24,674 bases of DNA from a virus: IMG/VR virus record IMGVR_UViG_3300012006_000009, positions 18,295 to 42,968 of that record, one strand, 5' to 3'. Within the stretch, counting starts at the first letter, position 1, and each line of letters opens with the position of its first letter. This document shows positions 4,081 to 24,674 of this stretch, in pieces. The translations under genes and the position numbers were made by a program. Under the pieces are notes generated by a model. That model was not told the DNA's origin and did not search any database. It saw only the letters and a program-made list of their open reading frames with translations.

Positions 4081-4135
4081 GGGGGTAACGGGGGCTGACG
4101 GACACCCCGTTCGCTCCGTCGAGCTAGTTACCCCC
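4081..4135 (-). terminator. Nested hairpin upstream of the primase gene, possible attenuator
   Basis: GGGGGTAAC (4081-4089) pairs perfectly with GTTACCCCC (4127-4135). Inside, GACGGA (4097-4102) pairs with TCCGTC (4115-4120), and alternatively ACGGGG (4088-4093) with CCCCGT (4105-4110), so at least two folds compete. On the minus strand the outer stem is followed by TTTCTTCTTCT, a poor but U-rich tract. The right arm covers the last codons of the HTH gene. Position and shape suggest partial termination or attenuation that lowers primase expression; this is inference from structure only. Confidence 0.45.
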
Positions 4136-4369
4136 AGAACCTTTGGATAAGGACCGAAAAAAGCTGTCGATCATACGACCATGTTGTAGGCTTGGACGAC
4201 TGATGCCATAGAACCAGTTGTAAACTGTTTGCTTGGTCACGTCAAAGTACGACATTACATCGGTAACCGGAATGTCCCTAGCAATACAAAACTTGCCAAG
4301 GCGCACTCCAAGGTTCTTTTGATCGGCTTCTTTATTAGTCCTTACGACTCTTTGAGAGTAGCCAATCAT
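4124..4369 (-). CDS. Small helix-turn-helix DNA-binding protein
   Basis: 81 residues. Residues 31-58 (RDIPVTDVMSYFDVTKQTVY followed by NWF) read as a helix-turn-helix with a typical xTxxTVYNW recognition helix, as in Cro/XRE-like or MerR-like phage regulators. Basic residues at both ends fit a DNA-binding role. Its start overlaps the stop of the upstream gene by four bases (ATGA), so translation is coupled. A structured hairpin separates it from the primase. Candidate targets in this window are the shared -35/operator motif and the 29-base palindromes, but nothing in the sequence ties it to either. It could equally be a replication accessory protein. Confidence 0.7.
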   Translation of the reverse strand: MIGYSQRVVRTNKEADQKNLGVRLGKFCIARDIPVTDVMSYFDVTKQTVYNWFYGISRPSLQHGRMIDSFFRSLSKGSGGN

Positions 4370-5731: not shown

Positions 5732-5759
5732 ATTATATGGCTAAATTAGACTTTGTCAA
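5732..5759 (-). promoter_or_regulatory. Consensus sigma-70-type promoter for the primase operon
   Basis: On the minus strand a perfect TTGACA (5759-5754) is separated by 16 bases from a perfect TATAAT (5737-5732). The -35 is part of the motif TTGACAAAGTCTAATT shared with other promoters of this window. The stop codon of the upstream helicase gene lies within the -35. The first gene starts 27 bases downstream of the -10. Confidence 0.9.
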
Positions 5760-9064: not shown

Positions 9065-9270
9065 GCGTTCTTCTTAGCTTTAGTCTTCATAAAGTCAATG
9101 TCGGGTTGCTCTTTACGTAACTCTGCATACTCTAGCTGTACACGCTGAGCGTTAATTATCTTGCCCGCAGTGTTGTTCATTTCGGTGGCAATCTTTACGT
9201 CAATAGAGCCGTTCTTGAGTCCATCATAGAGAGCGGACAGTTCTGTTGTTAATTCACTGATGTGTTTCAT
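9061..9270 (-). CDS. Small conserved-looking phage protein, possibly DNA-related
   Basis: 69 residues: helical, with ELSALYDGLKNGSIDVKIAT, EMNNTAGKIINAQRVQLEY and PDIDFMKTKAKK. This pattern (LYdGLKxGxId...NNTAGKxI...QLEY) is familiar from many tailed phages, where it is unannotated. GGAG lies seven bases before ATG 9270. It overlaps the upstream repeat protein by 17 bases and the next gene by four. Function unknown; a regulatory or DNA-linked role is only a guess. Confidence 0.65.
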   Translation of the reverse strand: MKHISELTTELSALYDGLKNGSIDVKIATEMNNTAGKIINAQRVQLEYAELRKEQPDIDFMKTKAKKNA

Positions 9271-10099
9271 TTTTAAACTCCGATAGTTTACGTTTAATAA
9301 AAAGTCTCATGCGTGCCGCCTCGAGTAACTCGGGTGTCATCGCTTCAGATTTATACAATTTTCTAATGTATGAATCTGGTGCTCTAGCAATTCGTCGTTT
9401 GCCTTTTGCTTTGAACATTTCGGGATTAGCCTTACGGCGTGCATCCACTCGTACTTTAGCTTGTGCTTTGGCTTTTTCTTTGTTAGCTTGATTCCATTCT
9501 TTTCTCCTTTCTTTAGTTGCCGCGGCATACGCTTTAACGTGTTCTTTGTTAGCTTCCCGCCAAGCCTTACGTCTTGCCAACTCACGTTCCCTGTTGGCTT
9601 CGTGGTACGCCCTACGTCTTGCGTTGTTCTGTTCCTTGTTTGCTTCGTGGTACCTTCTACTACGCTCAGCTACATGCTCTCTATTAGCTTCTGTCCACGC
9701 CTTCTGATACTCGCGTCCATACTCCTTGTTAGCTTGCTCCCACGCTCTGTTCTTTGCTCGTATTGTTTCTCTGTTTGCATCTCGATACGCCTTTCTTTTT
9801 GGGGCTTGTATTTCTTTTGTAGCTAGGTAATACGCTTTTCTACGCTCAAGTAACTCGTCCTCACGACCCGCCCATCTAGCCTTGTCTTGCTCTTTTAGTT
9901 TTTCCTTGTTAGCTTCTCGATATGCTTTTAATCGCGCCTTTACCTCTTCGTTGTTAGCTTCCAAATATATGCGCCGCTTTTCCTTCAGCACTTCTTTGTT
10001 AGCTTCCCGCCAAGCCTTGTTCTTCTCTTTCAGCGATTCTTTGTTAGCTTCCCGCCAAGCCTTAACTTTGGCGGCTCTAGTCGCTTTAGCCTCCTCCAT
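9254..10099 (-). CDS. Tandem 15-residue-repeat helical protein with conserved C-terminal cap
   Basis: 281 residues. An aromatic residue recurs every 15 positions (15, 30, 45, 60, 90, 105, 120, 135, 150, 165, 180), each followed by EANKE-like text: about 12 units of the type KAWREANKE plus six charged residues. The repeat makes one long, highly charged, Lys/Arg/Glu-rich helix. The last about 45 residues (PDSYIRKLYKSEAMTPELLE and AARMRLFIKRKL) match a C-terminal domain I remember in phage and large-virus repeat proteins with putative nucleic-acid contacts. GGGAGG six bases before ATG 10099 is the best ribosome site of its region. It overlaps the following gene by 17 bases. The 45-base DNA repeat unit suggests growth or shrinkage by slippage. 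Exact function unknown. Confidence 0.75.
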   Translation of the reverse strand: MEEAKATRAAKVKAWREANKESLKEKNKAWREANKEVLKEKRRIYLEANNEEVKARLKAYREANKEKLKEQDKARWAGREDELLERRKAYYLATKEIQAPKRKAYRDANRETIRAKNRAWEQANKEYGREYQKAWTEANREHVAERSRRYHEANKEQNNARRRAYHEANRERELARRKAWREANKEHVKAYAAATKERRKEWNQANKEKAKAQAKVRVDARRKANPEMFKAKGKRRIARAPDSYIRKLYKSEAMTPELLEAARMRLFIKRKLSEFKNETHQ

Positions 10100-14078: not shown

Positions 14079-14107
14079 AATGTAGTGACTATATTAGACA
14101 AAGTCAA
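14079..14107 (-). promoter_or_regulatory. Sigma-70-like promoter of the nuclease-polymerase operon
   Basis: On the minus strand, TTGACT (14107-14102) and TACATT (14084-14079) are separated by 17 bases. The -35 belongs to the same shared motif (TTGAC, three A/T, GTCTAAT) as other promoters here, but with the central triplet reversed (TTT rather than AAA). Weaker hexamers suggest lower activity than the other four. It lies 75 bases after the terminator at 14177-14202. Confidence 0.75.
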
Positions 14108-14141: not shown

Positions 14142-14170
14142 GAACATATCGAATTAGTTTCGATTTGTTC
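14142..14170. repeat. 29-base palindrome, copy 1
   Basis: Arms GAACATATCGAA and TTCGATTTGTTC, centre TTAGT; arms pair with one mismatch. It lies in the 166-base gap between the polymerase operon and the 14224 gene, between the terminator and the -35 of the promoter at 14079. Confidence 0.9.
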
Positions 14171-16251: not shown

Positions 16252-17343
16252 TTATGAACTTATCGAATTCGATTCGCTTTGTTCGCTTAGGGCAGGCTCC
16301 GTTACATAGTGCCTGTTGCTCTTAGATGGGACAACTCCCTCCTCTAGTTGCTCTTCGATGAATACCTCATCCGCATACACGACGCAGATCAGTTCTTCAA
16401 TATAGTTAGTCAAGTCATCGCCTTGGAACGATAGTGTGTAGATGGGTGACATGTTGTGTCGGTACTCGTGCTGTTGTGTGCCACCCTGTCTGAGTAACAC
16501 ATACAAAGCCCACGACCAATCCTCGGTTGGCTCAGTCCCCGAAATCCAATCGAGTAAGAGTTTGGCACTCTGCATATGACTCCAATGCTTGCCGTACCTA
16601 TGCTTGCGAGGCAGGGGTAGTTCGTCAAGTGTGCACATGTCGTAGCTGAACTCTTTACGAAACGGGTCGTCGTAACTAAGGTTGCTGTAATGTTTACGAT
16701 ACTTCTCGTCGTACCAAGCCGATGGTCTGTACCCACACGCCACACGCAATCTGTTGTGAGCAGACTCAGTCTCATCCTTGAACTCACTCTGTTTGTTATC
16801 AATGGACATGACTAAGGCTACCCAATCTATGAATGGTTGGTACTTCGCCCCGATCTTCTTCGTGATTCTGGGTCGCTTACGATAGTTGTATTCTTTAGGA
16901 TAGGACTCCAAGTCGTAGCCCGTTTCCGTCATGATGAACTTCAACGACCCGCGCTTATCCAAGACAATACTCTTGCCAACATCACTCAGTCTCACAATCA
17001 AGCGCCCTTTGTTCCATTGAAAGAACATGGGGTTAGGTAGGTAGTTGTGTAGCGTGTGCACAGTAAACCCCGAGTAATGGTACGGGGCGTTCAGCGTGAA
17101 CCCACCCGCGTTGTGCCACACCATGAGAGGGAACCCAAGGTAGTTGAGTTGCACATCACCTGTCGTCCCATCGTATGAGATAGAAGCAGATGGGTGATGA
17201 CGGCGTATACCGAGTGGGCGCACAGTCTTACCGCGTATCGGGGCTACGCTGTTGTAGTGTGCCAACGCTTCATCGTAGTTAGCGAGTGGTTTGATACCAA
17301 AGGTGTTCATGTAATAAAATTCCTTACTGGTTATGTCGAACAT
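16252..17343 (-). CDS. Phage protein of unknown function with palindrome-derived C-terminus
   Basis: 363 residues, rich in aromatic residues (Trp, Tyr, His) and mixed strands and helices; no catalytic motif recognised. Two starts compete: ATG 17343, with AAAGGA seven bases upstream, and ATG 17310, with AAGGA ten bases upstream; the first lies inside palindrome copy 3. The final residues EQSESNSISS are encoded by palindrome copy 2, with the stop just beyond it, so the original C-terminus may have been extended by a repeat. It lies between the DUF3150-like gene and a ribbon-helix-helix-like gene. Many phages carrying a MoxR-VWA module have one further large protein of this type, but I cannot prove a link. 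Confidence 0.6.
   Translation of the reverse strand: MFDITSKEFYYMNTFGIKPLANYDEALAHYNSVAPIRGKTVRPLGIRRHHPSASISYDGTTGDVQLNYLGFPLMVWHNAGGFTLNAPYHYSGFTVHTLHNYLPNPMFFQWNKGRLIVRLSDVGKSIVLDKRGSLKFIMTETGYDLESYPKEYNYRKRPRITKKIGAKYQPFIDWVALVMSIDNKQSEFKDETESAHNRLRVACGYRPSAWYDEKYRKHYSNLSYDDPFRKEFSYDMCTLDELPLPRKHRYGKHWSHMQSAKLLLDWISGTEPTEDWSWALYVLLRQGGTQQHEYRHNMSPIYTLSFQGDDLTNYIEELICVVYADEVFIEEQLEEGVVPSKSNRHYVTEPALSEQSESNSISS
16256..16284. repeat. 29-base palindrome, copy 2 (coding)
   Basis: Arms GAACTTATCGAA and TTCGCTTTGTTC, centre TTCGA; arms pair with three mismatches. It lies in the 3' end of the 16252 gene and encodes EQSESNSIS. It is also 27 bases upstream of the DUF3150-like start. Confidence 0.9.
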
Positions 17344-17366
17344 ATCGAATTCCTTTCGGTTAGTTC
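17338..17366. repeat. 29-base palindrome, copy 3 (stop/start junction)
   Basis: Arms GAACATATCGAA and TTCGGTTAGTTC, centre TTCCT. It contains the TAA stop (17360-17362) of the small gene upstream and the ATG (17341-17343) plus AAAGGA of the 16252-17343 gene. Confidence 0.9.
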
Positions 17367-17518
17367 GTTTCGTTGAAGAAGACTGCGATCAAATGGCGCA
17401 CCACTTGTCCGTTAGTCGGCTCGAACCCTAGTCTGTCGACGAGGGCGGTCTTGACCTCTTGAAGCAGGTCGTATGTTTCTTTGTTAAGGGCTACTGAGTA
17501 GCCTTGTGTAGGCTTCAT
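17360..17518 (-). CDS. Small ribbon-helix-helix-like protein (52 residues)
   Basis: 52 residues from ATG 17518 (MKPTQGYSVALNKETYDLLQ); one more in-frame ATG at 17521 gives an equally good ATGA overlap with the stop of the gene before it. The layout, a short basic strand (YSVALN) followed by a helix (KETYDLLQEVKTALVDRLG) and a second helix (TNGQVVRHLIAVFF), matches a ribbon-helix-helix fold such as Arc/CopG-type repressors and antitoxins. Such proteins bind short inverted repeats. Its stop codon lies inside palindrome copy 3, which would suit autoregulation; this is a testable guess. It could also be a plain small helical protein. Confidence 0.6.
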   Translation of the reverse strand: MKPTQGYSVALNKETYDLLQEVKTALVDRLGFEPTNGQVVRHLIAVFFNETN

Positions 17519-17763
17519 CATTTCTTGGTCTCCTCTTCAATAGTCTTTGCGTTTGCATCAAGCTCCATGCGAAAGATGCCAGTCATCGGTGCGATGTAAC
17601 ACGCCTCGTTGCTTGGCTTCTCTACAACAGTCAGCGAACAATTCTTGCCCCACTTACTCCCAACGCGTTGACACGAGTTGAGGACGCGGGCTACCTCCAT
17701 AGCCTCGCCCATAGTAAGCAAGAACCTACTACTACCTACATTCAAGATTACTTCTTCATCCAT
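17518..17763 (-). CDS. Small protein of unknown function
   Basis: 81 residues starting MDEEVILNVGSSRFLLTMGE; mixed strands and helix, with a strand-rich centre (KNCSLTVVEKP, ACYIAPMTGIFRMELD) and an acidic-basic end (TIEEETKK). AGGAG lies six bases before ATG 17763. It overlaps the 17756 gene by eight bases and couples to the ribbon-helix-helix-like gene. I do not recognise it. Confidence 0.6.
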   Translation of the reverse strand: MDEEVILNVGSSRFLLTMGEAMEVARVLNSCQRVGSKWGKNCSLTVVEKPSNEACYIAPMTGIFRMELDANAKTIEEETKK

Positions 17764-18166
17764 TTCTCTCTCCTAATACAAGGAACCACCCGACTAACGG
17801 GCTGTCGTTACTACAATAGACTTCGTATGGGAAGCCGTGCGAAATAAAACTACTCGCGGTCGACACCGCGCTGAAACCATCATTGCCCTCAGCTTTGGCT
17901 ATGTCCGCGCAGTAATCCCACAACTTCTGAAAGCCTTCGAGCGTATCGAACTTGGGTAACCCAAGATCAAATCGCGCCTTAGCAAACAAATGATAGTGGT
18001 CATACATGTTGTGTGTATAAGCAGTTGGGTCTATCTCCTTGATGAGCGCCATGCCCGCAGGGTTTAGGCGCATCGCAAAGTTAGTCTGCCCCACCGTGCA
18101 AAGAGTATTTGCATGATGGATGCGTTCAACCATCGGGTCACTATCGGATAACAAGTTTCTGTCCAT
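17756..18166 (-). CDS. Protein of unknown function downstream of the VWA gene
   Basis: 136 residues from ATG 18166 (MDRNLLSDSDPMVERIHHAN). An upstream extension to 18280 exists but lies fully inside the VWA gene in another frame and looks unlike protein; GAGG six bases before 18166 supports the short form. It still overlaps the end of the VWA gene by 26 bases. Features: an N-terminal acidic part, TNFAMRLNPAGMALIKEIDP, a HNMYDHYHLF segment, and C-terminal hydrophobic SPLVGWFLVLGER. No domain recognised. Its place next to the VWA gene suggests a shared function. Confidence 0.55.
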   Translation of the reverse strand: MDRNLLSDSDPMVERIHHANTLCTVGQTNFAMRLNPAGMALIKEIDPTAYTHNMYDHYHLFAKARFDLGLPKFDTLEGFQKLWDYCADIAKAEGNDGFSAVSTASSFISHGFPYEVYCSNDSPLVGWFLVLGERNG

Positions 18167-19439
18167 TGGGGACCTCGTACTTGTCATTACCGAGAATGCA
18201 CCACAGGGTAGGCGCTTTGATAGCCGCCCACTTCTGCTTGTTGGTGTGCATAAACCCATCCGACAGCATGATGAGTGCATCGGGGGTCATGCGTTTCTCT
18301 TGCATGAAGTCCACCACTACATCGGGGTCAGTACCGCCACCACCCTTGGGGTTAGTCTGATGCACAATGTTCTTGGTGTTACCTTTGTAGGTCTCATGTC
18401 CGGCTACCTCGGCGTCCCAATAGATAACATCAACACGATCAGCGCCGATGCTTGCCAAACACCCATTCATCTCTGATAGGAAGTCGGTCAAGAGCTGCCC
18501 CTGAATCGAACCTGATGTGTCCATACCGAGGACGAGCCACTTCACGCGCTTGCCCAATATGCTTGGGAGAATCACGTCCTGCCATAAGAAGTTCTTATGC
18601 GCCTTACGCCATGATGCGGAGTCCCGATCTTTGAGTGAAGTACGCATGAACCGACGCAAGACTTCGCGCCAATCAATCTTTGGCTTGAGTAGTTCACCGA
18701 TCTCGCGTGACATAGTCCCACCGACCTTGCCCGCGTAGATACCACCTTGGCGCAACACCTGATCAATGTCACGCTCGAGTTGCTTCTTCTCGTCCTCGGA
18801 CATACCGTTCTTGGCATCTTCCCATTCGTGCACATCAAGAGCCTTGAACTTTCCGAAACCTTTTCGCTTTGTTCCTTTGCCCTTGTCACCATCGTCGCCG
18901 TCATCACCATCGTCGCCGTTATCAGGACCGTCCGGACCGACAGGACCATCGGGCTCTTCGGGTTCTTCGCACTCATCCATGAGAATGTCGAACACCTGCT
19001 TCGCGTCCATGCCACGGAAGCGCTCATCGAAACAACCGATACGATCACCCGACTGCTTGTCGCGAGGGAACGCGAGACAAGTCTCGTTGGGGTCCATGTC
19101 CACCAGTTGCACATTGATAACAAAGTCACACGCGTTGTTGGCTATGCCCGCGTTGACTTCCCACAACTTACGCCATGTAGTCAGATGACGATAGCACTTG
19201 TGCATGTTCTCGTGCATGATAAGGAAAGCCAATTCTTTATCTGTGAGAGAGTCCACAAAGGCGCGACCATACTTAGCGTCGCGCCCGTTGGTGCTCGCTG
19301 TGTAATGTTCACTCTCTACGATAGTGATCTTGCCTACCATGAATAGACCAGCGAACAACGCGAACTTGGGGTCACGCATCAAACTCACATGGACTACCTC
19401 TATCCGCTTCTCAGCGGGAAGTCTTGCTTTAACTAGCAT
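18141..19439 (-). CDS. Putative metallopeptidase-VWA (DUF2201-like) protein, CobT-like partner of MoxR
   Basis: 432 residues. The N-terminal domain has LIMHENMHKCYRH (73-85) with an intact HExxH zinc motif (H76, E77, H80), as in the DUF2201 N-terminal putative metallopeptidase. A Gly/Asp/Pro-rich linker (about 160-195) follows. The C-terminal VWA-like domain has the MIDAS pattern DTSGS (307-311), T370 in GGGGTDP, and D394 in LSDGF. Proteins of this type pair with MoxR/CobS-like AAA+ ATPases; here that gene is at 20750-21826, in the same transcript. Phages often annotate them as 'CobT-like', though no cobalamin gene is nearby, so chelation is unlikely. A substrate-remodelling or protein-cleaving role is plausible. 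Palindrome copy 4 sits in the linker. AAGGAGG five bases before ATG 19439 is the strongest SD here. Confidence 0.85.
   Translation of the reverse strand: MLVKARLPAEKRIEVVHVSLMRDPKFALFAGLFMVGKITIVESEHYTASTNGRDAKYGRAFVDSLTDKELAFLIMHENMHKCYRHLTTWRKLWEVNAGIANNACDFVINVQLVDMDPNETCLAFPRDKQSGDRIGCFDERFRGMDAKQVFDILMDECEEPEEPDGPVGPDGPDNGDDGDDGDDGDKGKGTKRKGFGKFKALDVHEWEDAKNGMSEDEKKQLERDIDQVLRQGGIYAGKVGGTMSREIGELLKPKIDWREVLRRFMRTSLKDRDSASWRKAHKNFLWQDVILPSILGKRVKWLVLGMDTSGSIQGQLLTDFLSEMNGCLASIGADRVDVIYWDAEVAGHETYKGNTKNIVHQTNPKGGGGTDPDVVVDFMQEKRMTPDALIMLSDGFMHTNKQKWAAIKAPTLWCILGNDKYEVPNGQKLVIR
18846..18874. repeat. 29-base palindrome, copy 4 (coding, linker of VWA gene)
   Basis: Arms GAACTTTCCGAA and TTCGCTTTGTTC, centre ACCTT; same 12-5-12 shape. 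In this gene it is read as GTKRKGFGKF, a frame different from copies 2 and 5. It lies in the Gly/Asp-rich linker, a tolerant site for insertion. Confidence 0.8.
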
Positions 19440-19920: not shown

Positions 19921-20272
19921 AGGGTTCCTCCATATCTTTCTTGTACTGTTCCCAATCAACCCAATGCTCATCCAATAAGGTAGAGCCAGCATCATGTAGC
20001 GCAGTGAATACATTCCACATCATGTCGATCACTTGGTCTTCGCGTAGCGTATGCCACCCCTCGCCCTCATCGAGATACCATTCGGCTATCGATTCAGCTT
20101 TGGCGAACACCTGCTTCCAACCTTCCTCCCAGTTGGTCATGTCGTACTCACCTACATAATGCCCGCCACTCCCGCACTCACCTTGCAGGGATAGAACGAA
20201 CCATTTGATCTTGCCGTTGTCGTGCGGTATGCCCGAGTCCTGCATCCAGTTGTCCATATCAATATCACTCAT
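19913..20272 (-). CDS. Acidic protein of unknown function
   Basis: 119 residues, acidic and Trp-rich (IKWFVLSLQGECGSGGHYVG, NWEEGWKQVF, EWYLDEGEGWHTL, DEHWVDWEQYKK). Mixed helix and strand. The acidic, aromatic-rich make-up suits an inhibitor or DNA mimic, but nothing diagnostic is seen. GGAAGGG seven bases before ATG 20272 is a good SD. Four-base overlap with the gene before it. Confidence 0.6.
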   Translation of the reverse strand: MSDIDMDNWMQDSGIPHDNGKIKWFVLSLQGECGSGGHYVGEYDMTNWEEGWKQVFAKAESIAEWYLDEGEGWHTLREDQVIDMMWNVFTALHDAGSTLLDEHWVDWEQYKKDMEEPCA

Positions 20273-20580
20273 GGTCTTACCCTTCCTCTAGTAAGGCGTA
20301 GCGCAAACACCTCCATGTCCTGCGCCTCATCGTTCATGTTAATCATGCGTAGGTTGTCAGCCAAGCGCATACTGTGGTGATAGATGCGTTCACGAATGTC
20401 GGCATCCATCTCGATCTCGGAATTTATCGAATCCAATTCGATTTGTTCGTCCTCGACCTCGTCCTCTTCGGTAGGTTCTTCGACTTCAATATTGATGACG
20501 CGTACGCCCTCCAATATCTCGACGATCTCGTACTCCGCACCGATGCGATCTAACACATCGTAGATTTCGTTAGGTTTCAT
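20269..20580 (-). CDS. Acidic protein interrupted by a palindrome-derived segment
   Basis: 103 residues. The N-terminal part is strand-rich (EYEIVEILEGVRVINIEVEE), then a run of acidic residues, then EQIELDSIN, encoded by palindrome copy 5, and a helical C-terminal part (ERIYHHSMRLADNLRMINMN) with a basic end. The palindrome-derived stretch lies between the two folded-looking halves. The reading frame is the same as in copy 2 of the 16252 gene. Four-base overlaps at both ends. Function unknown. Confidence 0.6.
   Translation of the reverse strand: MKPNEIYDVLDRIGAEYEIVEILEGVRVINIEVEEPTEEDEVEDEQIELDSINSEIEMDADIRERIYHHSMRLADNLRMINMNDEAQDMEVFALRLTRGRVRP
20420..20448. repeat. 29-base palindrome, copy 5 (coding)
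   Basis: Arms GAATTTATCGAA and TTCGATTTGTTC, centre TCCAA; the only copy where the outer GAAC is GAAT. It is read as EQIELDSIN inside the 20269 gene. Confidence 0.9.
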
Positions 20581-20749: not shown

Positions 20750-21826
20750 TTACCCTTTCAATCCCGCGAACATGTACTGGTTCTCGCGAGCCCATGTCAC
20801 GAACGATGGATGCGCCATAGCCCACTGCTTCTTGGTGCTGATCTCTAAGAGAGAATTAATAAAGACGGCTTGCGTTTCTTTAGGCATACGCTTGACATAG
20901 CGCAACCACACCGCGAATGACTCACGGGTACACACCATCACACCCTTAAAAGCAAGAATACAAAGAGCCGCAGGGCTAGTCGGTATCGGTGCTGTATCAG
21001 GAGACTGCTCGATAGACTCACGCGTTGGGAGCTGGTCTGACAACGAGATGTATGCTTGCAGATCACGCGATGCAGAGATGCCGATAGTGCCGTCCAGCGC
21101 ACAGATCAACGAGTTCTCTGATATGTTGTGACGGACATTGACCCAATGCGATGCCTTGAACGCAGAGCGAGGAGAGAAGAACGCGGTTTGACTCGCGTCC
21201 GTTGGGTTGAAGATGTACGGATTCTCTTTCTGTCCACCGTCCATGTACGACGCCATGCTGTGCGGGTACTCCTTGACCCACGCTTGAATCTCAGGTGCCA
21301 CGCCCGCGTTGCCCGCCCACACTAGCCACTCGTCTGCAGTTGGCTTCATGTAAGTCATCCATGTCTGACGATTACGAGTATGTGCCTTGGCATGATCACC
21401 GACACCATCGGCATCGTTGTTACCAGTAGTAAAGACAATCGACTCAGGGTGCAGATAACGATCACTCATGCGTCGCTCGTGTAGCAGTGGGTGTAGCGTG
21501 TTGCGCACATAGTCATCGGTCTTTGTCCACTCGTCGATCATGATTACGCATGGTTCGTTGAGATGCAACTTGAAGTTCTCCGCAGGGTAGAAGTCCAAGG
21601 TGCGCGTCGTATGGTTGGGAATAGGCATACCCGCTTGACCCACATCGGTGTTAGGTCCGTCGATATACACCTTGTGGAAACCGGTCTTCGCGACGATCAC
21701 ATCTTGGATCGCGGTCTTACCAACTCCGGGTTCTCCAGTAAGGTGTATTGAGTTATGCCCGCTGTTGATGAGCAAGTCCACCGCTTCGTTGAAGTTGATA
21801 CGGCGGTTAAAAGATAGTTCTGACAT
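20750..21826 (-). CDS. MoxR-type AAA+ ATPase (CobS-like)
   Basis: 358 residues. Walker A GEPGVGKT (31-38), Walker B VIMIDEW (94-100, D98 and E99), sensor 1 TTGNN (133-137) and an arginine-rich stretch at about 151-153 that may provide the arginine finger. The ATPase domain is followed by about 150 residues with little resemblance to known domains. MoxR ATPases act with VWA proteins as chaperone-like remodelling complexes; the partner at 18141-19439 is in the same transcript. Phage members often appear as 'CobS-like', but the chelatase reaction is not supported here. AGGA eight bases before ATG 21826; palindrome copy 6 lies just upstream. Confidence 0.88.
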   Translation of the reverse strand: MSELSFNRRINFNEAVDLLINSGHNSIHLTGEPGVGKTAIQDVIVAKTGFHKVYIDGPNTDVGQAGMPIPNHTTRTLDFYPAENFKLHLNEPCVIMIDEWTKTDDYVRNTLHPLLHERRMSDRYLHPESIVFTTGNNDADGVGDHAKAHTRNRQTWMTYMKPTADEWLVWAGNAGVAPEIQAWVKEYPHSMASYMDGGQKENPYIFNPTDASQTAFFSPRSAFKASHWVNVRHNISENSLICALDGTIGISASRDLQAYISLSDQLPTRESIEQSPDTAPIPTSPAALCILAFKGVMVCTRESFAVWLRYVKRMPKETQAVFINSLLEISTKKQWAMAHPSFVTWARENQYMFAGLKG

Positions 21827-21858: not shown

Positions 21859-21887
21859 GAACAAAACGAATTGAATTCGATTAGTTC
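21859..21887. repeat. 29-base palindrome, copy 6
   Basis: Arms GAACAAAACGAA and TTCGATTAGTTC, centre TTGAA. The TAA stop of the zinc-ribbon gene (21881-21883) lies in the right arm; the MoxR ATG is 33 bases downstream. Confidence 0.9.
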
Positions 21888-22162
21888 GAACGGGGGTTTT
21901 TCTGATTCGTGTCGAGCAAAGTCTGTGGTGCAGACTCCACCGTTACGAGCATATACGGACCCTTGCCGTATGGTTGCACCACGCACCAAGAGGCACGCTC
22001 GGCAAGTGCGGAATCTTCCCCGCACATCATGCAGAGTTTGAAACCTAGGTTCCAACGCTCCACGCGTACATCGTCACCGCAGTGAACGCACGCACGCCAG
22101 TCGAAATTTGAGGGCGCAGCGCCTACAACATCATCGTATTCTTGTACTTTCTGAGTAAACAT
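21881..22162 (-). CDS. Zinc-ribbon protein of the phage TNQKNPR type
   Basis: 93 residues with two CxxC pairs (C25-C28, C44-C47), a four-cysteine zinc ribbon, followed by ALAERASWCVVQPYGKGPYM and a C-terminal TNQKNPR. The text YGKGPYxxVT/SAPxTLxxTNQKNPR is shared by many small phage proteins whose role I do not know. It is the first gene of the long MoxR-VWA transcript. GGGAGG six bases before ATG 22162 gives strong initiation. Its stop lies inside palindrome copy 6, and palindrome copy 7 lies in its leader. Confidence 0.75.
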   Translation of the reverse strand: MFTQKVQEYDDVVGAAPSNFDWRACVHCGDDVRVERWNLGFKLCMMCGEDSALAERASWCVVQPYGKGPYMLVTVESAPQTLLDTNQKNPRSN

Positions 22163-22179
22163 AATCTACCTCCCTGATT

Positions 22180-22208
22180 GAACAAATCGAACTGGATTCG
22201 ATAAGTTC
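22180..22208. repeat. 29-base palindrome, copy 7 (leader)
   Basis: Arms GAACAAATCGAA and TTCGATAAGTTC, centre CTGGA. It lies in the leader between the promoter at 22247 and the zinc-ribbon start at 22162, just upstream of the GGGAGG. Confidence 0.92.
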
Positions 22209-22231
22209 TGTTAACTATCGTTGTCATTGAA

Positions 22232-22249
22232 AATCTACTGAAGTAGATT
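22232..22249 (-). promoter_or_regulatory. Operator-like 18-base palindrome at the start site (copy A)
   Basis: AATCTACTTCAGTAGATT on the minus strand: an 8-2-8 perfect inverted repeat overlapping the last bases of the TATAAT and the start region. An identical arrangement with one centre change is present at 23180-23197. A repressor bound here would block RNA polymerase. Confidence 0.75.
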
Positions 22250-22275
22250 ATAGCATACAAATTAGACTTTGTCAA
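22247..22275 (-). promoter_or_regulatory. Consensus promoter of the MoxR-VWA operon
   Basis: TTGACA (22275-22270), 17-base spacer, TATAAT (22252-22247), a perfect sigma-70 consensus with the optimal spacing. The -35 is in the shared TTGACAAAGTCTAATT motif, and codons of the upstream gene's end (GERAIDKV) overlap it. Confidence 0.9.
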
Positions 22276-22546
22276 TAGCGCGTTCGCCATTTGAGCGTTG
22301 TGTTCGTACATTGAGTACGCGTGCCATTTCCTCCACGGAAAGCTGTTCGGGCTTACCGCGAATCCAATCAAGGTAGCCTTCACCTAGCAACAATGCCCGC
22401 CGAGCGTTGTCAACGCTGATTGCTACATTGCCGTCTTTCGCATAGGTTTCTTTTGGGTGCATGGCTTCATGCCCATGCTCCGCGTAAAACATTGCCCAAC
22501 GCAACGCATTAGTTAAATCTTCGAGAATCCAATCTGCTTCACTCAT
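22262..22546 (-). CDS. Protein of unknown function whose end overlaps a promoter
   Basis: 94 residues from ATG 22546 (MSEADWILEDLTNALRWAMF), with AAGGA six bases upstream and ATGA overlap with the gene before; an extension to 22573 is not needed. Helical start, then HGHEAMHPKETYAKDGNVAI, SVDNARRALLLGEGYLDWI and a C-terminal VEEMARVLNVRTQRSNGERAIDKV. The last eight or so codons lie in the 56-base promoter block that is also present upstream of 23076, so the C-terminus may have been replaced by the duplicated block. Function unknown. Confidence 0.6.
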   Translation of the reverse strand: MSEADWILEDLTNALRWAMFYAEHGHEAMHPKETYAKDGNVAISVDNARRALLLGEGYLDWIRGKPEQLSVEEMARVLNVRTQRSNGERAIDKV

Positions 22547-22779
22547 ACTTGTTCCTTCCATGCGCTCATCCATTGCTCGAGCGTTGGTTTCTGTGGGGTG
22601 TTGGTGAAATGAGCCTCAGCTTTGGCTATGTCTTGGCAAAATACGACGTACCTTTTGCGCATAGCAACTAACTGCCTTGTGGTCAATGTCTCGTTGAGCA
22701 TCTTGCTAAGTATGAGCGCGTCTCCCTGTTGCTTGGCGTTGTATAAAGCAAGCAATGCTTGTTGATTGTCTTGTGTCAT
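22543..22779 (-). CDS. Small protein of unknown function
   Basis: 78 residues, mostly helical: MTQDNQQALLALYNAKQQGD, LILSKMLNETLTTRQLVAMR, a tyrosine-rich middle (KRYVVFCQDIAKAEAHFT) and a C-terminal PTLEQWMSAWKEQV. Four-base overlaps with both neighbours. No domain recognised; a small transcription or DNA-linked factor is conceivable. Confidence 0.55.
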   Translation of the reverse strand: MTQDNQQALLALYNAKQQGDALILSKMLNETLTTRQLVAMRKRYVVFCQDIAKAEAHFTNTPQKPTLEQWMSAWKEQV

Positions 22780-22898
22780 GTGCGTTCCTTTCGCTGTTGT
22801 TTAAGAATACGAACCCAGTCAATCCGTGATAAGAACCAGCGGTAAAGTGGGGTTGAGCAGTCTTGGCAGAGCAAGACTTCGTTGTCACCTTGTGTCAT
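22776..22898 (-). CDS. Very small protein with one CxxC pair (40 residues)
   Basis: ATG 22898 (MTQGDNEVLLCQDCSTPLYR), with AAGGGG six bases upstream. The frame is open to 23045, but the upstream part lies inside the next gene and reads like noise. One LCQDC pair, then a basic end (WVRILKQQRKERT). The single cysteine pair is half a zinc site, so the protein may dimerise or bind metal weakly. Starts ten bases after the preceding stop. Confidence 0.45.
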   Translation of the reverse strand: MTQGDNEVLLCQDCSTPLYRWFLSRIDWVRILKQQRKERT

Positions 22899-22908
22899 GT
22901 GCATCCCC

Positions 22909-23076
22909 TTAGTGCAACTCAAAGGCTGAGTCGTCGCCGTCATAGAACCAGTCGGTGTAGGAATAGATACTTCCTGAGACTGAGGTGTGCGAGCCGTGGT
23001 ATTGCTCGGATTCTTCTTCATACTCCGCTTCCTCCAAGGATACAAAGCGGGCAGTGTTACTCATATCAACTCTCAT
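22909..23076 (-). CDS. Small acidic protein (55 residues), first gene of its operon
   Basis: ATG 23076 (MRVDMSNTARFVSLEEAEYE) with GGAG six bases upstream. The frame is open to 23145, but those codons run through palindrome copy 8, so I take the shorter form. Acidic, tyrosine-rich C-terminus (TDWFYDGDDSAFELH). Its promoter is at 23195-23223; it may act in an early step. No family recognised. Confidence 0.55.
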   Translation of the reverse strand: MRVDMSNTARFVSLEEAEYEEESEQYHGSHTSVSGSIYSYTDWFYDGDDSAFELH

Positions 23077-23107
23077 AATGATCTCCAATATAGGATTTAA
23101 GGTTACC

Positions 23108-23136
23108 GAACAAAGCGAAATGAATTCGATAAGTTC
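23108..23136. repeat. 29-base palindrome, copy 8 (leader)
   Basis: Arms GAACAAAGCGAA and TTCGATAAGTTC, centre ATGAA. It lies in the leader of the 22909-23076 gene, between its promoter and ATG, as copy 7 does for the zinc-ribbon gene. Confidence 0.92.
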
Positions 23137-23179
23137 GGCGGACATAGTAGTCAGTTAGTATTGCTTCGCTCTACCATCC

Positions 23180-23197
23180 AATCTACTAAAGTAGATT
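23180..23197 (-). promoter_or_regulatory. Operator-like 18-base palindrome at the start site (copy B)
   Basis: AATCTACTTTAGTAGATT on the minus strand, 8-2-8 perfect inverted repeat, overlapping the -10. It matches copy A (22232-22249) except for one centre base. Confidence 0.75.
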
Positions 23198-23223
23198 ATA
23201 GCATACTAATTAGACTTTGTCAA
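23195..23223 (-). promoter_or_regulatory. Consensus promoter of the five-small-gene operon
   Basis: TTGACA (23223-23218), 17-base spacer, TATAAT (23200-23195). The whole block 23180-23235 matches 22232-22287 with only three differences in 56 bases, so promoter, spacer, operator and upstream part were duplicated together. Confidence 0.9.
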
Positions 23224-23237
23224 TAGCGTGTTCGCGT

Positions 23238-23915
23238 TTATGGGGCTGTGTTCGAGCTTTTGGATTTACCTATTGCATCAAAGAGTTTGCTGGTAAATAC
23301 GTCAAAGTCCTCATCCTCCACCACGGGTTTCTTGGCTTCTTCTGCTTCCCGCTTCTGCTTCTCTACGAGCGAGCGCATGATCAGCACGGGTTTGGAATTC
23401 TCCCCTGTGCGTGGCACTTCCTCACCCTTGTGATGTATGTGCGAGAGCCCGACAAACCTACGGTTCTTGAGACCCATGCAGTCATAGCCCGCTTCGCCCG
23501 CTGACTGCGCAAGCAGATCAGTAAAGATAGGATTGGTTGGTTTCAGCGCATGGAGTGTTGCTTCGTCAGGTGCAATCAAATGCCTGTGGGAATCTTGCTC
23601 GGGCAGATCATCGAATGGCAGAACTTGCTTGCGTCGCTTCTCCATGAATGGTTTGGCTTCGCGGTGATGCCACGGGTTGACGCAGAACTCAGTTGTACAC
23701 CAGCGGGTAATGCGGGATGAGGCGGGCGGGAATTTGATAATGGTGAATAGGATGCGAGCGATCGAGGTTGTCGCGAATTGCTTCGCCAGCGGGGAGTTGG
23801 CGGTGAGTATCGGGGCTAAAGAGTTGGATGTGTTGGGCCAAACGAAACAGTAACCTCGGGTTGTGCAGTTCTCAAGCAAGGTATCAGCGTTGTGGTATTT
23901 GACGGGACGGGACAT
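23238..23915 (-). CDS. HNH-like zinc-fold protein, possibly degenerate
   Basis: 225 residues from ATG 23915 (MSRPVKYHNADTLLENCTTR) with AAAGG nine bases upstream; the frame is open to 24059 but that extension crosses the promoter. The first 85 residues have an HNH-like zinc skeleton: C17 and C23 in CTTRGYCFVWP, C73 and C78 in RWCTTEFCVNPWHH, matching the CxxxxCvNPxH signature of phage HNH endonucleases, but the catalytic His-Asn-His set is not clearly complete. The C-terminal 140 residues are low-complexity and basic-acidic (EKQKREAEEAKKPVVEDED), then a short helix. It may be a decayed homing-type nuclease reused as a DNA-binding protein. It is the only gene on its promoter. Confidence 0.6.
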   Translation of the reverse strand: MSRPVKYHNADTLLENCTTRGYCFVWPNTSNSLAPILTANSPLAKQFATTSIARILFTIIKFPPASSRITRWCTTEFCVNPWHHREAKPFMEKRRKQVLPFDDLPEQDSHRHLIAPDEATLHALKPTNPIFTDLLAQSAGEAGYDCMGLKNRRFVGLSHIHHKGEEVPRTGENSKPVLIMRSLVEKQKREAEEAKKPVVEDEDFDVFTSKLFDAIGKSKSSNTAP

Positions 23916-24004: not shown

Positions 24005-24337
24005 TAGCCATGCGGGTTTGAAGGTAATTATATATTCTATGTTCTATATACTCGTGCAAACAAAGTATTGTGAGAGAGGGAGAAATAAAGTTGGGGAAGT
24101 TGGGTGGAGCCTTGCCCGCCGGATTCCTCTAAACCAAAAAGATTTGGGGTTCCTTCTCTCTCTCTCTCAAAGACAAATATATTATATATATATTATAGAA
24201 TAGAAAAGAAGAAAGAAGAAAAGCTAATGCTGGCGCGGGTTTAGGTCTTTAGGTTGTGCCTTTATTCTATAAGATTAGGTATGAGTTATATATTTTCACC
24301 CTCCGATTTTGCGGACCTGCTATATAACTCGGTACTT

Positions 24338-24352
24338 CCCCACTCTGTGGGG
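24338..24352. repeat. Small GC hairpin
   Basis: CCCCAC (24338-24343) and GTGGGG (24347-24352) pair perfectly around a TCT loop, between two TATATAAC-type tracts. No T-tract follows directly on either strand, so it is not a good terminator. Confidence 0.6.
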
Positions 24353-24384
24353 TATGCCTATTATATAACAAGTAGCGTTTTTGT

Positions 24385-24454
24385 GTACTACTTTTAGACT
24401 AGCTTCGCACTCGGCGAGGCGGGCGTTGCCTCAGAGCCCCCCAAAAAGTAGTAC
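24385..24454. repeat. Long-spaced inverted repeat with inner hairpin
   Basis: GTACTACTTTT (24385-24395) and AAAAGTAGTAC (24444-24454) are perfect 11-base inverted repeats. Between them GAGGC (24416-24420) pairs with GCCTC (24428-24432). The whole could fold as one structured RNA or DNA element immediately before palindrome copy 9. Confidence 0.6.
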
Positions 24455-24460
24455 TAAATA

Positions 24461-24489
24461 GAACAAATCGAATAAGTTTCGCTTTGTTC
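24461..24489. repeat. 29-base palindrome, copy 9
   Basis: Arms GAACAAATCGAA and TTCGCTTTGTTC, centre TAAGT; arms pair with one mismatch. It lies seven bases from the 11-base inverted repeat in the non-coding region. Confidence 0.9.
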
Positions 24490-24674
24490 GCTGAGCCCGC
24501 CATGCCGGGGCATCATTAAGCCTAGCCCGTTACTACAGAATAGGGAGATTAGCCCACCATGTGAACACAGACTAGCCCGTTACGAACTACACCGTTTAGG
24601 GAACTGGTTTCGCTCACTACCGTTCGCTCAGAATACGGATACCAATACGGGAACTGGCATCGGGGCGGGCGCGA

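Follow-up and report, generated by a model that had tools for sequence, protein, structure and literature searches.

The DNA analysed here, a window of 24,674 nucleotides (bases 18295-42968 of a 42,968-base IMG/VR virus record), probably carries a phage-encoded system for silencing early genes, a reading to which we give a probability of roughly 0.6. Such a system would resemble the stoperators of mycobacteriophages in its action and would differ from them in its sites and in its candidate reader, which is apparently unrelated. The region, whose direction of transcription is the minus strand, contains two almost identical promoters with an 18-bp palindrome over the -10 box and start (OpA), together with dispersed copies of a 29-bp palindrome (Pal29). 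Both palindromes are under selection at the level of DNA, their positions are conserved, and Pal29 switches sequence in concert and covaries with an orphan phage protein, here called reg; repression, the binding of Pal29 by reg and the timing are each what we infer. Taken together, these elements look like a previously undescribed switch that turns the early block on and off, the terms “early” and “repressed” being putative descriptions based on its position and anatomy.

As relatives we fetched 29 loci encoding the neighbouring MoxR-like ATPase, and whole-record scans used eight long records (42-65 kb each, possibly incomplete). A nucleotide search of isolated phages gave no match, and the bacterial genomes searched gave a single weak match, to an Armatimonadetes MAG contig, which is insufficient for naming a host. 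The features of the window are collected in Table 1.

Table 1. Promoters, palindromes, repeats and genes of the window (position 1 is its first base).
Feature	Coordinates	Strand	Description
Early promoter copy 1	23195..23223	(-)	TTGACA 23223-23218, 17 nt, TATAAT 23200-23195; extended TGn -10
Early promoter copy 2	22247..22275	(-)	TTGACA 22275-22270, 17 nt, TATAAT 22252-22247; -35 overlaps end of upstream ORF
Further perfect promoter	24004-23977	(-)	Before gene A; without OpA
Second promoter position	14079..14107	(-)	TTGACTTTGTCTA...TACATT, before VRR-NUC/replication genes; without OpA
Third promoter position	5732..5759	(-)	TTGACAAAGTCTAATTTAGCCATATAAT; without OpA
OpA copy 1	23180..23197		AATCTACTTTAGTAGATT (minus strand); perfect 7+4+7 dyad over -10/+1
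OpA copy 2	22232..22249		AATCTACTTCAGTAGATT
GAAC-N16-GAAC direct repeat	23230..23253	(-)	GAAC at 23250 and 23230; ends 6 nt upstream of copy 1 -35; outer Pal29 4-mer
GAAC-N16-GAAC direct repeat	22282..22305	(-)	GAAC at 22302 and 22282; upstream of copy 2 -35
Pal29	24461..24489		Upstream non-coding region
Pal29	23108..23136		Leader of promoter copy 1
Pal29	22180..22208		Leader of promoter copy 2, 17 nt before zinc-ribbon gene start
Pal29	21859..21887		Over zinc-ribbon gene stop, 32 nt before MoxR start
Pal29	20420..20448		Inside ORF 20269-20580
Pal29	18846..18874		Inside VWA gene
Pal29	17338..17366		Over stop of 53-aa RHH-like gene
Pal29	16256..16284		3' end of 363-aa gene, before 290-aa gene
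Pal29	14142..14170		Last site, between 290-aa gene and VRR-NUC promoter
Gene A	23238..23915	(-)	225 aa; evolves fast; no family match
Zinc-ribbon-like gene	21881..22162	(-)	93 aa; downstream of promoter copy 2
MoxR-like ATPase	20750..21826	(-)	phrog_1297
VWA (name used here)	18141..19439	(-)	432-aa protein; phrog_1314; Pal29 within gene
RHH-like protein	17360..17521	(-)	53 aa (beta-alpha-alpha); candidate OpA reader

Duplicated promoters and the palindrome over their start

The original prediction described a duplicated promoter-operator cassette in which 22232-22287 and 23180-23235 differ at three of 56 positions. The cassette is borne out and the count is exact (53/56 identical), with similarity reaching over 75 nt at 87%; a 53/56 match has a chance probability of about 1.5e-28, or about 1e-19 over all pairs in the window. 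Each module holds, as proposed, a perfect consensus promoter, TTGACA-17-TATAAT with an extended TGn -10, which lies on the minus strand. The copy at 22.2 kb also doubles as the end of a coding sequence, its -35 encoding the final IDKV-stop (ATT GAC AAA GTC TAA) of the ORF ending at 22262. The 29-base palindromes and ribosome sites described for the leaders are likewise in place downstream of the promoters: after the palindrome at 22180-22208 come GGGAGG and, 17 nt from the palindrome, an ATG, and after that at 23108-23136 come GGAGATC and an ATG. Two copies of the cassette occur in all six genomes of one lineage that reach both positions (G000 and G002-G006), and one copy was found in the remaining promoter-bearing relatives. 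Two further viral contigs, L140 and L141, each carry two OpA promoter copies.

The 18-base palindrome foreseen over the -10 and start of both modules is a perfect dyad with arms matching at 7/7 positions from the AAT of the -10 box. When the cassette was sought in relatives, giving a comparison set of 31 matching promoters from 25 genomes, the OpA arms matched 7/7 in 29 of the 31; OpA begins at the -10 in every promoter compared and its arm spacer is 3, 4 or 5. Changes in one arm are mirrored in the other (AATCTAC/GTAGATT, AATGTAC/GTACATT, AATATAC/GTATATT), and this mirroring holds when the -10 becomes TATACT (ACTCTAC/GTAGAGT). As the start is expected near the centre of OpA, a transcript would hold the distal half alone, and the symmetry is therefore a feature of the DNA, whose simplest reading would be the site of a dimeric repressor. 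One regulator could plausibly control both cassettes, as proposed, but need not: G002 and G006 each carry two OpA copies that differ symmetrically from one another (AATCTAC vs AATGTAC or AATATAC).

Candidates for the reader of OpA are the 53-aa RHH-like protein and an 81-aa Xre-like protein. The predicted model of the former has an extended N-terminus and helices at residues 14-31 and 37-52; its best structural matches are TCP, NikR, MazE and ParD, at Z of 5.0 or less, and it has no Pfam match over the cut-off. The 81-aa protein (4124-4369), of HTH type, is kept in the long relatives, and its recognition helix, VSKQTVYNWF, hardly varies. The sequence of OpA correlates best with the 290-aa protein g290 (0.65), which we set aside as more a proxy for phylogeny than a candidate.

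The -35 region TTGACnnnGTC[TCA]A is common to three promoter positions per phage (OpA, VRR-NUC and a middle promoter) and nearly missing in shuffled sequence; this short dyad may serve as one more operator or as a promoter signature specific to the phage. It was seen in G000, G005, G008, G009, G012 and G015.

Upstream, gene A has, in the window and in 24 relatives, invariant Cys/His/Asn-Pro residues (CxxxxCVNPxHH) that recall an HNH-type zinc fold minus the usual catalytic histidine, and Pfam, PHROG and PDB searches with gene A gave chance-level matches only. Beyond it, no convincing gene was seen over the long stretch 24100-24674, where cgggctag-like blocks recur. Elsewhere in the window, 9254-10099 encodes a protein of 281 aa that matches HNH weakly and contains 45-nt repeats in frame.

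A palindrome family at fixed positions in the early block

The original prediction treated the leader palindromes as part of the cassette. They are indeed present after both promoters, but they belong to a separate, genome-specific family that extends across the early block, with nine copies in the window against 0.01 expected. Relatives carry 7-11 copies per phage, confined to an early block of ~10-12 kb: each of the eight long records has 7-9 well-matching copies, all between the block's first gene and the VRR-NUC gene, and none of these records has a copy outside the block at 2 or fewer mismatches. The slots are kept with great regularity, being filled upstream of MoxR in 24/24 genomes, inside VWA in 23/24, upstream of g290 in 21/22 and upstream of VRR-NUC in 21/21.

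Within these fixed slots the sequence itself changes. The cores switch wholesale between phages (TCGAAT, CCGACA, TCGACA or ACCCT), giving the half-sites GAACnnAtCGAA, GAACnnnCCGACA, GGAAnnnTCGACA and GGACnnnTCGACA and, in G012, GGAAnnACCCT, while the sites of any one genome are of a single type or of the closely related c/d pair. All nine sites of G012 are GGAAnnACCCT, including the one at the MoxR stop codon, a place that reads GGATAAATCGAC in one phage and GGATAAACCCTT in another. Some phages read the site within VWA in frame 0 and others in frame 1, with unrelated peptides, and selection therefore acts on the DNA and not on the peptide. Pal29 most likely has its own reader, separate from that of OpA.

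Part of Pal29 recurs at the promoters. In the OpA promoters the outer Pal29 4-mer stands 10 and 30 bases before the -35, and in several genomes at 50 as well, and this 4-mer fits the Pal29 class of its own genome (GAAC, GGAA/GGAG or GGAC), a match that none of 5000 genome permutations reached. The reader of Pal29 may thus also touch the promoter, judging from four shared bases; as the outer 4-mer is all that is shared, the promoter repeats could belong to another protein.

A candidate reader and its rivals

The candidate reader of Pal29 is reg, an orphan phage protein of ~215-242 aa encoded by the first gene of the block in relatives; the record of the window ends just short of this gene. The 242-aa form lies at 5765-6490 of L007, and a class-b homologue at 4664-5317 of L008. 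A Pal29 lies 35-46 nt before the reg start in most loci where the start could be set, which suggests possible autoregulation. Between genomes, Pal29 site distance follows reg distance with a partial r of 0.76 given MoxR, the highest among nine proteins; on the same measure g290b reaches 0.44, VWA 0.24 and VRR 0.20, and gene A and the zinc-ribbon protein are at about 0 or below. Among 17 comparable genes of G004, reg alone lies nearer to the class-b phages than to those of class a. Class b forms one clade in the reg tree (support 96) and is rejected as a clade by the MoxR+VWA+g290 core tree (AU p 5e-5), a conflict that depends mainly on G004. On the core tree, class b may instead be a paraphyletic, ancestral set and class a a group derived along a fast branch, and no exchange would then have taken place; the covariation of reg with Pal29 would stand either way.

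The predicted structure of reg is all-helical (pLDDT 85). A Pfam search gave no match over the cut-off and a PDB-sequence search none above chance, PHROG matches were weak, scattered and at chance level, and Foldseek and VIA-align returned nothing convincing for the fold, so that DNA binding by reg is unsupported by homology. A relative of reg lies at 8387-8827 of L086, a contig from an Armatimonadetes metagenome bin, which may be a hint of the host or contamination of the bin.

We propose that this region governs the block of genes that the phage transcribes first. On entry, the host RNA polymerase would fire two strong promoters of host type (most relatives have one). Each is preceded, at about -42 and -62, by the outer Pal29 4-mer as direct repeats and has a Pal29 downstream, and Pal29 recurs at set gene positions from the block's first gene to just before the VRR-NUC promoter. 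Reg, encoded first, would bind Pal29 and the upstream repeats and, as it accumulated, would repress its own gene and shut the early block, combining shut-off at initiation with a stoperator-like roadblock to the polymerase elongating along the block. OpA, over the -10 and start, would be read by a dimeric phage protein as a second, independent control. The eight long records, which may be incomplete, have no tyrosine or serine integrase (PF00589, PF00239; control genomes were matched for PF00589), and ParA (PF13614) and ParB_N (PF02195) are absent from them. With none of these families found, the system more probably times events in lytic growth than governs lysogeny, for which a role is not indicated.

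Several other explanations account for part of these observations. Pal29 might be read by another phage protein (g290, the 53-aa RHH-like protein or gene A) while reg evolves in parallel, which we consider unlikely. In its favour, g290 has a partial r of 0.62 given MoxR and keeps 0.41 once reg is also removed, g363 reaches 0.45 and RHH 0.40, and the RHH-like protein resembles a known DNA-binding fold. Reg is nevertheless the strongest, at 0.65 given MoxR, g290 and VWA, and for the inner core alone it holds 0.51 vs 0.18 for g290; the RHH protein, for its part, is 96% identical between G000 and G004 despite their different Pal29 cores, and gene A was rejected as the Pal29 reader since it shows no correlation with site sequence. 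We find it similarly doubtful that Pal29 and its reader activate the early promoter or organise the DNA, as a centromere or nucleoid-like structure would, instead of repressing. Direct repeats at about -42 and -62 occupy classic activator positions, and the lack of an integrase match is shared with plasmid-like prophages; the promoters, however, are already full consensus, Pal29 lies within transcription units and in the early block only, and a centromere-like role is at odds with the missing PF13614 and PF02195.

Far less probable is an RNA hairpin or translational control near start codons, although several Pal29 copies stand 15-45 nt before one. Sites are also found at a distance from starts, within VWA and across stop codons, and the arm-covariation test spoke against a hairpin: degenerate positions pair no more than independent arms would and mostly less (at position 5 of class a, 0.21 observed vs 0.51 expected), and such non-complementary arms argue for a protein site. 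The arms are less complementary than expected at positions 5-7 and 23-25, and there are hints that each site may have a polarity. Least probable of all is that the two promoter modules are a recent segmental duplication and nothing else, with no shared control. Their 53/56 identity and a similarity that continues a few bases upstream of the -35 would fit, but the promoter and OpA of relatives with 75-80% identical MoxR are nearly as conserved as the two copies are with each other, so that constraint explains their likeness.

Early-gene silencing by reg thus remains our preferred reading. A broader claim is tentative, at a little under even odds: that a bipartite 29-bp palindrome, set at 7-11 fixed positions, genes included, is read by a new regulator family that has no recognisable homologues and also reads the outer module at the early promoter, where it stands as direct repeats spaced by 20 bp. 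The specificity of this family would have been re-coded wholesale at least three times, with all sites in concert. The material offers a natural series of matched regulator-operator pairs, with at least four to five site classes, from uncultured aquatic phages, and a testable candidate reader without a known fold match.

Comparison with known dispersed-operator systems

Dispersed palindromes among early genes have precedents. Phage phiC31 has dispersed palindromic repressor sites in its early region, which are 17-bp intergenic repeats, and the likeness, compared by description only, lies in the palindromic form and early location. N15 carries dispersed sopC centromere sites, palindromes in early lytic genes that depend on SopA/SopB; the scatter of palindromes among early genes is similar, whereas the phages studied here have no ParA or ParB_N match. 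In two isolated distant relatives, Pseudomonas phage Rollin (where a run of N clouds the result) and Rhizobium phage RHph_TM29, the scanned stretches hold no comparable repeat family.

The SPbeta master repressor MrpR (YopR), which has a tyrosine-recombinase fold, acts on a dispersed 15-bp motif, SPBRE, in promoter regions (PMC10516654). The proposed system would likewise pair a phage master repressor with a dispersed element repeated at many loci, but PF00589 has no match in the eight long records. In Cluster A mycobacteriophages, the repressor (L5 gp71, Bxb1 gp69) binds 24-34 dispersed 13-bp asymmetric stoperators genome-wide, which are mostly intergenic and keep one orientation relative to transcription, the promoter operator being a copy of the same site; from one subcluster to the next, the stoperator consensus changes along with the repressor (PMC3029335, PMC5712189). 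As in Cluster A, the phages described here have many near-identical dispersed sites, nine in the window and 7-11 in each relative, whose positions are kept among relatives and whose consensus shifts together with the repressor or, in this case, its candidate; an operator also lies over the early promoter. In contrast to the 13-bp asymmetric stoperators, Pal29 is a 29-bp palindrome in 7-11 copies, restricted to the early block and sometimes within genes; the promoter operator OpA differs from it, sharing through the upstream direct repeats only the outer 4-mer; and Pfam and PHROG searches with the candidate reader brought out no recognisable HTH. Since site asymmetry and a shared operator sequence are missing and the eight long records gave no match for the recombinase fold, we place the system in neither the stoperator nor the MrpR group. 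Such phages would allow one to ask how some ten dispersed operators come to be re-coded together, and whether the class of site determines mutual exclusion between phages, as the stoperator class does in mycobacteriophages.
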